This document shows, one piece after another, positions 2,238 through 30,885 of a DNA stretch of 38,802 bases. Location of the stretch: contig JAPPBX010000021.1 in the NCBI GenBank assembly GCA_026702755.1, positions 1 to 38,802 of the forward strand. Direction: 5' to 3'. The first letter of the stretch is position 1, and each line of letters begins with the position of its first letter. The notes below the pieces were generated by a model, which made no database searches, was not told the DNA's origin, and saw nothing but the letters and a program-made list of their open reading frames with translations. A program made the position numbers and the translations under genes. The stretch is from Candidatus Poribacteria bacterium (GTDB lineage: Bacteria > Poribacteria > WGA-4E > WGA-3G).

Positions 2238-2708
2238 TCACAACGCGTCATTATCCGAATCAAAAACATATTTCTCTTCGTAGGCAACTTTAAAAAGTTC
2301 CAAAATCTCAAAATATTCCTCACGAAACGTTTTTTTCGAATGATGTTTTTCCTGATTTTTGATGTAGTTGACGAGATGATTCAATTGAGATTGCGCATAC
2401 GAAAACGCGCCAAACCCTTCCTGCCATTCAAATCGCCCTACAACCCACCGTTTTCGGTTAATAAATTTTGATGAATGTGCCTTGATGTCTCTTACAAGAT
2501 CAGATATAGCAGCGTCCGGTGTTAGTCCAATAAGGATGTGAACATGATCGGGCATGGAATTGATTTGAATGAGGGTTTGTTTTTTGTTGTTGATGATGCC
2601 CATGATGTAGCCGTGGAGTTCGGTTTTGTGTTGTTTGGGGATGAGGGATTGCCGGCCTTTGACGGCGAAGACAATGTGTATATAGATTTGTGTGTAGGTG
2701 TTTGGCAT
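2238..2708 (-). CDS. REP-associated tyrosine transposase (IS200/Y1-like), copy 1
   Basis: A 156-aa Y1 HUH single-strand transposase of the IS200 TnpA/RAYT type. The metal-binding HUH motif is DHVH (H55, H57). The catalytic tyrosine is probably Y115 in the helix VNYIKNQEKHH, with Q119 and the HH pair after it. It lies inside subfamily-1 REPs that are inverted on its two sides, which points to a RAYT that nicks and spreads those palindromes rather than a plain insertion sequence; no left or right IS ends were recognised. The ribosome binding site is weak (AAGAAAA). It aligns without gaps over about 150 residues with the copy at 24439-24918, at roughly 70% identity by eye, with both active-site motifs kept. 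Family call firm, REP specificity inferred. Confidence 0.9.
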   Translation of the reverse strand: MPNTYTQIYIHIVFAVKGRQSLIPKQHKTELHGYIMGIINNKKQTLIQINSMPDHVHILIGLTPDAAISDLVRDIKAHSSKFINRKRWVVGRFEWQEGFGAFSYAQSQLNHLVNYIKNQEKHHSKKTFREEYFEILELFKVAYEEKYVFDSDNDAL

Positions 2709-24438: not shown

Positions 24439-24918
24439 TCATTCTTCAGGTGGGAAATCTGCAACTGAATCAAAAACGTACTTCACATCATACGCAACCC
24501 CAAAATGCTTCAAAAACGCAAGATATTCCTCACGAAACGTTTTTTTCAAATGATGTTTTTCCTGATTTTCAATATATGCGGCAACCTCGGGGATCTGAGA
24601 ATGCGAATAACTGAACGCACCAAATCCCTCTTGCCACGTAAAGTGTCCCACAGTCCAGCGTTTCTGATTGATGAAACGCGTCGAATTGACTTTAATATCT
24701 TTCACCAAACCAGATAGGGTGGCATCTGGTGTCATACCAACCAAGATATGGATGTGATCTGGCATCGAATTGATTTGAATTAATTTCTGTTTCTTATTCG
24801 TAATGATGCCAGTGATATATTTATGAAGTTCTGCTTTGTGGCGTTCGGGAATAAGTGCCTGTCTACCTTTTACGGAAAACACGATATGTATATAGAGTTG
24901 TGTATAGGTATTCGCCAT
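24439..24918 (-). CDS. REP-associated tyrosine transposase (IS200/Y1-like), copy 2
   Basis: A 159-aa Y1 HUH transposase, about 70% identical by eye to the copy at 2238-2708. HUH motif DHIH (H55, H57); probable catalytic Y115 in AAYIENQEKHH. It is surrounded by subfamily-2 REPs (CACCCCTACGGGGTG with a CTATAGACATAG tail). They are in one orientation to the left (24383-24406) and the opposite one to the right (24972-24999, 25021-25050), the same bracketing as RAYT1. The two proteins differ mostly by conservative changes, with clusters at about 105-117 and at the C-terminus. Copy 2 probably recognises the subfamily-2 palindrome. No upstream promoter was recognised. Confidence 0.9.
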   Translation of the reverse strand: MANTYTQLYIHIVFSVKGRQALIPERHKAELHKYITGIITNKKQKLIQINSMPDHIHILVGMTPDATLSGLVKDIKVNSTRFINQKRWTVGHFTWQEGFGAFSYSHSQIPEVAAYIENQEKHHLKKTFREEYLAFLKHFGVAYDVKYVFDSVADFPPEE

Positions 24919-28172: not shown

Positions 28173-28199
28173 TTTCGTCTCCTCATCCGATTCTCTGTA

Positions 28200-28405
28200 G
28201 GACTTACGCAATTTTTTGATAACTACCTACGTCCCGCACACCGCTGGCGAGGTTTATAGTGAAGCCCGAAAATATGTAGACAGTTGGTCAGCAAACCAAC
28301 CGCCCACCGCCGCTGGCGAGGATTGTATCCTCGCCTCCGCACAATGTCCAAGTAATTGTGGGCTTTACTATAAAACCTCGCCAGCAAAGGGTGCTGCGTA
28401 AGTCC
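28200..28405 (-). mobile_element. GGACTTACGCA palindromic element interrupted by a second miniature element
   Basis: Outer ends GGACTTACGCA (28200-28210) and TGCGTAAGTCC (28395-28405) and the outer palindrome halves CCGCTGGCGAGGTT and AAACCTCGCCAGC match the copy at 19572-19656. Between them a 114-bp element (28257-28370) with ends TAGTGAAGCCC and GGGCTTTACTA is flanked by TA on both sides (28255-28256 and 28371-28372). Removing it with one TA restores GCGAGGTTTAAAACCTCGC exactly as at 19619. The insert itself contains a CGAGGATTGTATCCTCG palindrome at about 28316-28334. Confidence 0.8.
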
Positions 28406-28533
28406 AGTCTCTGTTTTAAAGTATACCTTTAATTAATAAGCAATGTCAATCTGTTTTTTTAGGACATTTGAGATGACCCTCCTTGTAGAAGCGAGTGTTT
28501 TTGCGGATTTCCTCCACGCTCGCGACACTCCAC

Positions 28534-28562
28534 TTGACATTGATAAAGTAGTATGCTATAAT
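28534..28562 (+). promoter_or_regulatory. Perfect-consensus sigma-70 promoter upstream of the IsrB element
   Basis: TTGACA (28534-28539), exactly 17 bp, TATAAT (28557-28562). It reads toward the putative omega RNA, isrB and dprA. An AAAAGGAG at 28568-28575 follows but has no start codon at useful distance, which suggests that the original downstream gene was displaced. Confidence 0.7.
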
Positions 28563-28619
28563 ATCCCAAAAGGAGATATTCGGAGTATATATTAAGGTAT
28601 AAAGCGTAAATAGATGTAA

Positions 28620-28846
28620 AGATCACCCAGCTAAAGCCTGGGTGCTTTGACATAGCGTAACCACACGTTCCCTGCCAAAGATTAAGTTCTTTACTACAGA
28701 CTTTGCGAATGCCACACGCGCATTCGCTATATCGTAGTGCCTGTGGTGGTTCGCAAAGGTGTTTAGGATGCTCCCCAAGTCCTCTGTAAAACGCTGACAC
28801 TGCGATCTGGATGGGGCAATACAAACTCTACGGAGAATTACAAACG
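28620..28846 (+). ncRNA. Putative omega RNA of IsrB
   Basis: IsrB and IscB use a guide RNA encoded directly upstream of the protein gene, with the guide at the 5' end. Here about 225 nt without a convincing plus-strand gene lie between the hairpin at 28624-28644 and the isrB start. Further self-complementary segments include GCGAATG...CATTCGC (about 28706-28732). The guide would be the bases immediately left of 28624, which are host DNA. Boundaries are approximate; the assignment rests on position, not on a covariance match. Confidence 0.55.
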
Positions 28847-29863
28847 ATGTTTGTTCCTGTTGTTGATAAGCACCAAAATCCACTTATGCCTACCAAACCT
28901 TCACGGGCAAGAAAGTGGATACAAGATAAGAAGGCAACACCCTTTTGGAATCAGGGCGTATTCTGTGTGCGTCTCAACGTAGACCCTTCAGACAGATATT
29001 TCCAAGAGATTGCTGTTGGTATAGACCCTGGCAGTAAGAAGGAAGGCTTTACCGTCAAAAGCGAGGCACACACCTATTTCAACGTCCAAGCGGACGCTCA
29101 CAACAAGGTTGGCAAGAAAATAGAAAAGCGTCGCATATTGCGGAGAGGTAGACGCTCTCGGAAATGTCCGAATCGGAAACAGAAAAAGCACAATCTTTCT
29201 AATCGTAATCGTATCCCTGCTGGCACGCGTGCGAGGTGGGATTGGAAACTTCGTATCCTTGACTGGCTATCCATACTGTATCCTATCACACACGTCTGTG
29301 TAGAGGATATTAAGGCACGGACAAAGCAATATCAGAAAAAGTGGAATCAATCCTTTAGTCCTTTGGAAGTCGGTAAGCAGTGGTTCTATACCGAAATACA
29401 AAAGCGTTGGAAACTGTTGACTGTACAAGGTTTTGAAACCAAAGAGATACGCGATCGCCTTGGGCTAAAGAAATCATCAAAGAAGTTAACTGAAACCTTT
29501 GATGCCCATTGCGTTGATAGTTGGTGCTTGGCGTATCACACCGTCGGGGGTTCAGAGATACCCGACACTACGAATATATTCTGTATAGCACCGATACCGA
29601 TACGCAGGCGTGAACTCCATAGACAGAACCCACAGAAAGGTGGCAAGCGTCCGCGGTATGGTGGCACTGTGTTAGGGAACGGTTTGGTCAAAAATACTTT
29701 GGTCCGACATATCAAATACGGACTCACGCGTCTGTCAGGTGTTAATGCAAAAGGCTTCTTTTCTCTCTACGATATGCACGGGAAACGATTGACTACAGGC
29801 GCGAAACGCACAGATTTTCAAGTGCTGACACGCCTTAACTTTGGCTACAGAACCCTGGTCTAA
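28847..29863 (+). CDS. isrB: IsrB: HNH-less IscB relative, RNA-guided RuvC nickase
   Basis: A 338-aa protein. The start at 28847 opens with the PLMP domain typical of IscB/IsrB (FVPVVDKHQNPLMPTKPSRAR, residues 2-22, quoted in part: NPLMPTKPSRAR); a GGAGA lies about 11 bp upstream. RuvC-I is GIDPGSK with D60. An arginine-rich bridge helix follows at about 94-112 (EKRRILRRGRRSRK). RuvC-II is VCVEDIKA with E153. RuvC-III is DAHCVDSW with H221 and D224. Only about 65 residues separate RuvC-II from RuvC-III, with no CxxC or HNH motif, so the HNH domain of IscB is absent. That makes it IsrB, which nicks the non-target strand under guidance of an omega RNA. All expected RuvC acidic positions appear intact. 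It is followed at 62 bp by dprA. Confidence 0.88.
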   Translation: MFVPVVDKHQNPLMPTKPSRARKWIQDKKATPFWNQGVFCVRLNVDPSDRYFQEIAVGIDPGSKKEGFTVKSEAHTYFNVQADAHNKVGKKIEKRRILRRGRRSRKCPNRKQKKHNLSNRNRIPAGTRARWDWKLRILDWLSILYPITHVCVEDIKARTKQYQKKWNQSFSPLEVGKQWFYTEIQKRWKLLTVQGFETKEIRDRLGLKKSSKKLTETFDAHCVDSWCLAYHTVGGSEIPDTTNIFCIAPIPIRRRELHRQNPQKGGKRPRYGGTVLGNGLVKNTLVRHIKYGLTRLSGVNAKGFFSLYDMHGKRLTTGAKRTDFQVLTRLNFGYRTLV

Positions 29864-29925
29864 TACATGAGGGCGGATTTTCCTTCCCCGCCTAAAGGCA
29901 AGGAGTTTCCAATCCGTAAACTTTG

Positions 29926-30885
29926 ATGACAGATCCAAAAAAGAAGACACCTCTTGAGTATTGGCTGGCGCTCGCCTCGGTTGAAGGTCTCGGTAGCGTC
30001 CGGATCAGACGGTTGATCGCACGCTTCGGCAGCGCACAGGCAATTTTTGAAGCGGAACTCCCTGAAATCGCACGACTGCCGTCCTTCAACCCAGTGCTCG
30101 CGTCGCGGATACTTACGGTATCCGGCAACTTTCCGACATTCCGTGAGAGACTTGACACACTCGAAAACCAGAACGTGAGGGTGATGTGTCTTGAAGATCC
30201 AGCCTACCCACCGCAACTGAAAAACCTTCCTGATGCCCCCGGCATCCTTTGCAGCACCGGCGCGTTGACCGAAATCAATGATCAATGCGTTTCAATTGTC
30301 GGGAGCCAAAATCCGAGCATGGAAGGGATGGAGTTGACACTCTCGCTCGCAACGCAGCTTGTGCTCGCCGGATTTACCGTCGTTAGTGGGCTTGCCTCCG
30401 GCATTGATACGTATGCACACTCCGGCGCGCTCGCCGGTATGGGCAAAACGATTGGGGTCATCGCCACAGATATTTCCGCCGTCTATCCGAGACGAAACAA
30501 CCCTCTCGCTATGGAAATCTGTGAGCACGGGTGTCTATTTTCGGAGCATCCCTTCCCGACAGCACCATCGCCCGCGAATCTCGTACAGAGAAATCGTATT
30601 ATTAGTGGGCTTTCTATAGCAACGATTGTGATTGAGACTCGAAAAACGGGTGGTGCAATGCATACGGCACGGTATGCCCAGCGTCAGGACAGATCCGTCC
30701 TCACCTGTCGATGGGACACGCAGCACCCGCAGCGCGACGGTCCCCAAGAGTTGATAAAGACTGGCGCGCTTCCCTTCGCACCAACAGAAATCGAAAAAGT
30801 CATTGATATACTGACGCATCCAGAACGCCTTGAAACTTATGCAAGTAGTGCAGCAAGCGAGCAGATAGGATTGTTTGAAAATTAG
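29926..30885 (+). CDS. dprA: DprA/Smf-type DNA-processing protein
   Basis: A 319-aa cytoplasmic protein that binds single-stranded DNA entering during transformation and loads RecA. An N-terminal helix-hairpin-helix part (EGLGSVRIRRLIARFG, 20-35) is followed by a Rossmann-like DprA domain: VSIVGSQNPS (122-131), SGLASGIDTYAHSGAL (154-169), QRNRIISGLS (221-230) and ETRKTGGAMHTARYA (237-251). The last is a variant of the usual SGSLITA block. The C-terminal winged helix of longer DprA proteins is absent. The ATG at 29926 has no ribosome binding site at normal distance (AGGAG is 20 bp away, inside the IS right end), so the IsrB element may have cut the native leader. Confidence 0.88.
   Translation: MTDPKKKTPLEYWLALASVEGLGSVRIRRLIARFGSAQAIFEAELPEIARLPSFNPVLASRILTVSGNFPTFRERLDTLENQNVRVMCLEDPAYPPQLKNLPDAPGILCSTGALTEINDQCVSIVGSQNPSMEGMELTLSLATQLVLAGFTVVSGLASGIDTYAHSGALAGMGKTIGVIATDISAVYPRRNNPLAMEICEHGCLFSEHPFPTAPSPANLVQRNRIISGLSIATIVIETRKTGGAMHTARYAQRQDRSVLTCRWDTQHPQRDGPQELIKTGALPFAPTEIEKVIDILTHPERLETYASSAASEQIGLFEN

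Follow-up and report, generated by a model that had tools for sequence, protein, structure and literature searches.

Insertion of an IsrB element at the start codon of a dprA paralogue in a Candidatus Poribacteria bacterium, with a right end that may restore translation initiation

Structure of the dprA locus

The window, that is, the whole stretch of DNA analysed here, was 38,802 nt of contig JAPPBX010000021.1 (GCA_026702755.1, forward strand) from a Candidatus Poribacteria bacterium, and it contained a complete IsrB element located directly in front of a dprA gene (Table 1). This gene encoded a second DprA paralogue; a canonical copy, of 407 codons, was located at G000:C74. The initial annotation, made from the sequence of the window, had recognised the IsrB element and an upstream promoter, and had missed that the junction is a start codon, that this start codon is the target-adjacent motif (TAM), and that the right end carries its own module resembling a ribosome binding site (RBS).

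The ends of the element were defined by comparison with relatives lacking it, as the initial annotation had proposed. The comparisons used metagenome-assembled genomes. Thirty dprA loci were compared, including that of the window, and none of the 29 other orthologue loci contained an IsrB. The closest leader belonged to the empty locus L052 (genome G001; ...TTGACATTGATAAAGTAGTATGCTATAAT...GGTATAAAGCGTAAATAGAT|ATGACAGATCC). The window matched L052 up to position 28615 on the left and again from 29926 on the right; therefore, the element was inserted exactly before the dprA ATG, without duplication of the target. Left-end and right-end profiles built from other copies matched 28616–28707 and 29821–29924, respectively.

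The promoter was composed of TTGACA (28534–28539) and TATAAT (28557–28562), and its distance to the left end, given as about 60 bp in the initial annotation, was refined to 53 bp from the −10 box. L052 had identical hexamers, spacing, and position, and many other orthologues had TTGACA with TATTAT or TATACT. The promoter is credible because it is ancestral in empty orthologues, and not by a scan statistic; the promoter described earlier as captured was thus dprA's own. The guide consists of host leader sequence and is therefore necessarily read from this promoter, which, as the initial annotation stated, would transcribe guide, omega RNA, isrB, and dprA; the product would be a single RNA. A guide length of 20 nt was adopted from DtIsrB (PMC9581776). 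Among 38 genomes of the genus, G001 alone had an intact target of this guide with ATGA behind it.

Table 1. Features of the IsrB insertion and its host gene
Feature	Position	Strand	Remarks
Sigma70-type promoter, TTGACA-N17-TATAAT	28534..28562	+	Outside the element; 12/12 consensus; ancestral dprA promoter
Left flank, natural omega RNA guide (dprA leader, ..GGTATAAAGCGTAAATAGAT)	28596..28615	+	Stops exactly at the element junction
Complete IsrB element	28616..29925	+	1310 bp; no target-site duplication; from empty dprA orthologue sites
Omega RNA scaffold	28616..28835	+	47-copy alignment; 3' limit approximate
isrB	28847..29863	+	338 aa; Shine-Dalgarno GGAG upstream
GAGGG, proposed Shine-Dalgarno of the element, at the 5' hairpin foot	29869..29873	+	Similar motif recurs in copies
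Right-end hairpin, CGGATT...AATCCG	29874..29916	+	48-sequence alignment
9-nt linker TAAACTTTG, hairpin to host ATG	29917..29925	+	7–9 nt in 89/104 copies
ATGA, TAM and dprA start codon	29926..29929	+	Empty-site alignment
Host gene, second DprA paralogue	29926..30885	+	319 aa; Pfam PF02481, E 6e-60; orthologues across the genus

The neighbourhood of dprA was kept in sister genomes, with divergent branched-chain amino-acid ABC transporter genes upstream and a DprA-family gene downstream. A block of ~211 bp (28197–28407) with inverted ends (GGACTTACGCA ... TGCGTAAGTCC) was located between livG and the dprA promoter; it was missing in L050 and had the appearance of an insertion of the miniature inverted-repeat type.

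IsrB protein and omega RNA

The isrB product contained the PLMP motif and RuvC motifs I (GIDPGS), II (CVED), and III (DAHCVDSW) with their catalytic residues, and no HNH match was found in the Pfam and PDB comparisons. The sole Pfam match was RRXRR. The best PDB match was DtIsrB (8dmb, E 5.6e-36), with an alignment spanning 288 aa in which the acidic and His-Asp motif positions were aligned. The identification in the initial annotation (PLMP, intact RuvC, no HNH) was thereby confirmed. The length of 338 aa agrees with the ~350 aa of IsrB proteins. This domain arrangement, a structured omega RNA directly upstream, a guide supplied by the left flank from outside the element, and an NTGA-type TAM at the right flank are shared with DtIsrB (PMC9581776). 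Unlike in DtIsrB, the TAM of the present elements corresponds to start codons of host genes, and a module resembling an RBS is located at the right end. The window IsrB is a predicted RNA-guided nickase, and empty alleles would be among its substrates.

In the left-end alignment of 47 copies, the omega RNA had 28 consensus pairs, 18 of them with compensatory changes. Covariance searches gave a divided result: an Rfam scan of the window for the omega RNA found no match, HEARO (RF02033) included, while sibling copies matched HEARO at the same place with 29–38 bits, where gathering requires 83. The window omega RNA had one more perfect hairpin (GCGAATGC-CACACGC-GCATTCGC, 28705–28727), which none of the other 46 copies in the alignment shared.

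Insertion at host start codons across the genus

Three IsrB copies were found in the window's own genome and 45 related loci in other Poribacteria; with more copies added from the genus, 158 copies were obtained, which represented 127 non-redundant insertions. The right flank was ATGA in 101, ATGG in 6, GTGA in 9, and ATAA in 8; the other 3 had a different sequence. Two insertions, L037 and L044, were counted as ATGA by the junction rule and so are included in the 101 and in the 107 ATGR sites (ATG followed by A or G), but are better read as ATAA and were treated as ATAA in the right-end tally below. For ends with AAGATAATG (L022, L029, L030, and L035), the junction was ambiguous by 3 nt between ATGATGG and ATGG. 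The 2009 description of HEARO reportedly placed its integration beside ATGA or GTGA.

An open reading frame (ORF) of at least 60 codons was opened at 77 of the 107 ATGR sites (72%). The left flank had GGAG, GAGG, or AGGA within the Shine-Dalgarno (SD) window in 46/98 cases, and in 42/98 (43%) together with the ORF. The background at the same loci was 25–30% for the ORF, about 10% for the SD, and 3.8% for both; at sites not interrupting an ORF, the respective values were 21%, 16%, and 8.1%. The excess of ORF with SD gave p values of 3e-33 against the former and 1e-20 against the latter, which are nominal because the IsrB copies are related. In 33/98 left flanks, the SD ended 4–8 nt before the junction, compared with ~3.4 expected. 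Therefore, the TAM is usually the host start codon.

As an alternative, this distribution could arise from a pure target-site effect, in which TnpA and IsrB need NTGA or NTGG, intragenic insertions are purged, and the hairpin and AGGAG at the right end serve transposase DNA recognition with no role in translation. The NTGA TAM of DtIsrB (PMC9581776) is in line with such an effect. However, start codons were enriched even against the non-disruptive ATGR sites, and one insertion sits at the single-copy gene glnS. At glnS, a second base-exact empty site was available: empty orthologues had ..gattggtacggtatcagat|ATGAAGC, and an IsrB was located there in genome G020. In G015, the same glnS start codon was occupied by another type of element, whose right end was of the same kind.

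The invaded genes were mostly unrelated to dprA and included glnS, purD, dnaN, moaD, pcrA, and others. In dnaN, purD, and moaD, the family match of the host ORF began at residues 1–3, and an ABC ATPase likewise started where its family starts. As an example of a single essential host gene, dnaN was rejected: dnaN-like genes numbered two to five per genome in G000 and nine other genomes of the genus, some in tandem, and glnS, single-copy in each genome, was used instead. Insertion L043 had a perfect left-flank SD and a right junction without ATG (AGGAAGCACG), the beginning of the host gene having been deleted or rearranged. The ATAA-flanked IsrB copies (L033, L034, L036, L037, L044, and L175) were not at start codons, and their AGGAG foot was mostly absent.

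These data also bear on the initial proposal that, by capture of the dprA promoter, the element linked its RNA-guided nickase with DprA and thus with incoming single-stranded DNA. The promoter is indeed upstream, co-oriented, and ancestral to dprA. However, the 126 other insertions were elsewhere, sister copies being located at many unrelated genes, the other dprA orthologue loci were free of IsrB, and the dprA concerned is the second paralogue. A functional link is therefore unsupported and very improbable, and the association of the element with dprA is regarded as incidental.

The right end and its proposed ribosome binding site

At the right end, nearly all copies had TATAGGAG, a hairpin of ~42 nt, and AAGATTAG or a variant, with the host ATG next. 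In 48 aligned sequences, 94.5% of the hairpin cells were paired, and covariation was 0.516, compared with 0.129 after shuffling. The SD-like motif at the hairpin foot was present in 68/76 ATGR copies with an ORF, 21/29 without an ORF, and 3/10 ATAA copies (start-codon versus ATAA copies, Fisher p 1e-4). With the hairpin folded, the gap between SD and ATG was 7–9 nt, which is normal spacing. The succession of SD, hairpin, short linker, and AUG is that of split binding sites of the T4 gene 25 and 38 type, in which SD and AUG are linearly distant and joined by a hairpin (PMC3014915). The T4 hairpins serve a fixed phage gene, whereas here a mobile end would serve whichever gene has been invaded. 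As the initial annotation stated, dprA had no close RBS, and its empty orthologues likewise lacked a linear SD near the ATG; in the window, the GAGGG brought toward the ATG by the hairpin would serve as SD.

The isrB reading frame usually ran across the right-end SD, and codon usage was constrained there. The Arg codon over the SD site was AGG in 71/75 copies, compared with 10.7% in the rest of isrB. Of 153 conserved isrB columns, those with the strongest codon constraint were TCC, TCC, AGG, and AGC, all four in the right-end module. In most copies, the hairpin also contained UUCCUCC (29880–29889 in the window), which could pair with the AGGAG foot and was conserved to the same degree; it may form a switch that sequesters the SD or be recognised by the transposase.

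In 94 of about 106 copies, isrB ended 26–30 nt upstream of the host ATG. This short distance favours translational coupling alone, by which ribosomes would end isrB in the hairpin loop and reinitiate at the host ATG, with AGGAG assisting and no independent split RBS. In the window, however, the stop was shifted upstream, 62 nt before the ATG, and the GAGGG foot was retained. In addition, non-IsrB or decayed derivatives (L203:78-135 and L030:194-247) kept AGGAG, hairpin, and ATG beside a start codon with isrB absent. Coupling as the only mechanism is thus considered unlikely, although termination and reinitiation may also contribute, given the usual position of the stop.

Several observations weigh against a translational role of the right end. 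The ATAA control group was small (n = 10), and kinship among the copies means that the p values overstate independence. The constraint on TTCCTCC is not explained by an RBS and fits the target-site effect, since this motif is as constrained as AGGAG. The predicted unpaired fractions were moderate only (medians of 0.54 for the SD and 0.43 for the AUG across copies; 0.23 and 0.29 in the window). No long ORF followed 28% of the ATGR junctions. The native leaders of dprA and glnS had no close SD, so translation of such genes may proceed without it. In addition, TnpA is expected to recognise the hairpin as single-stranded DNA.

Transposition context

The absence of target duplication, the fixed flanking motif, and the subterminal hairpins are those of the IS200/IS605 group. 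Two Y1 TnpA genes were located in the window (2352–2696 and 24562–24906, both on the minus strand), and the element would probably be mobilised by a TnpA acting in trans. Two IS605-type loci of the same genus, L217 (with tnpA and tnpB) and L229, had a TnpA-sense left end homologous to the IsrB right end, hairpin included, but were ATAA-flanked and not at start codons. This homology is compatible with the target-site effect. However, AGGAG lies on the hairpin side away from the TnpA-sense target, and most ATAA copies had it in weak form or not at all.

IsrB copies beyond Poribacteria

In cyanobacterial and viral copies, the ends were placed without empty sites. Several IsrBs of cyanobacterial plasmids and phages were directly followed by an annotated or long ORF; no such ORF directly followed the Calothrix and Acaryochloris copies. 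The Leptolyngbya copy (right end ..CGGAGatttctt|ATGAGC, left flank ..CTTGGAGAGTAACT|GTCACG) lacked AGGAG at the hairpin foot, yet had an SD in the 3' linker, which also argues against a pure target-site effect; overall, that explanation is judged improbable. On pLBX of Leptolyngbya boryana (L234), IsrB immediately preceded a DUF1257 gene. The Stanieria right end was ..GGAGGcggaaag|ATG. Among viral contigs, GGAGG, hairpin, linker, and ATG were found in L242, L245, L248, L249, and L254, and an SD directly before the ATG in L246, L247, and L253. The ORF after L242 had just 26 codons, and L248 preceded an amidase gene (Amidase_3). In phage contigs L250/L251 and L254, IsrB was at the start codon of seemingly the same gene (MI.NL...NSSY.GSRDLWW), possibly a recurrent site.

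Discussion

Insertion of IsrB at host start codons, with a right end that re-supplies translation initiation, is considered the likely explanation. In the proposed mechanism, an IS200/IS605-type IsrB element would insert immediately 5' of an NTGR motif. As ATG followed by A or G starts most genes and the guide needs a host promoter, survivors, oriented like the host gene, would accumulate between its leader or SD and its ATG. Transcription from the host promoter would then run through the whole insertion, and the right end would restore initiation by an AGGAG-type SD, a distance-shortening hairpin, and 7–9 nt to the host ATG, or, in some cyanobacterial relatives, by an SD directly in the 3' linker. 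Of this account, the element ends, the placement at start codons, the excess of flanking SDs, the covariation of the hairpin, the nucleotide constraint on the SD codons, and the ancestry of the promoter are observed, whereas transcription, translation from the split site, TnpA action in trans, and nicking of empty alleles are inferred. The further view of IsrB as a start-codon-directed transposon with a portable hairpin-bridged RBS, which uses the start codon as TAM and the displaced leader and SD as guide, takes its guide RNA from the host promoter, and inserts almost neutrally, is held with somewhat less confidence, though it is still favoured. The interpretation offered in the initial annotation was partly supported.

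IStrons, the chimeras of IS605 elements and group I introns (PMC4227781), likewise pair an insertion sequence with a device made of RNA so that insertion does no harm, but they remove themselves by splicing, whereas the IsrB right end would replace the leader. Insertion of IsrB or IscB at start codons was not found described in a limited search that did not cover Altae-Tran 2021, Kapitonov 2015, and Weinberg 2009, and the term "start codon" was not found in the DtIsrB paper (PMC9581776). A paper on a thermophilic group II intron was rejected as a precedent on checking.

The arrangement offers an answer to how elements with a flank-derived guide gain a promoter yet spare the invaded gene, by insertion between leader and ATG with an RBS of their own. 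If true, insertion would be nearly neutral even at genes that are likely important, and host leaders and Shine-Dalgarno sequences are predicted to be over-represented among the guides of these Cas9-lineage nickases. Junctions suitable for direct tests are available in phages and cultured cyanobacteria.
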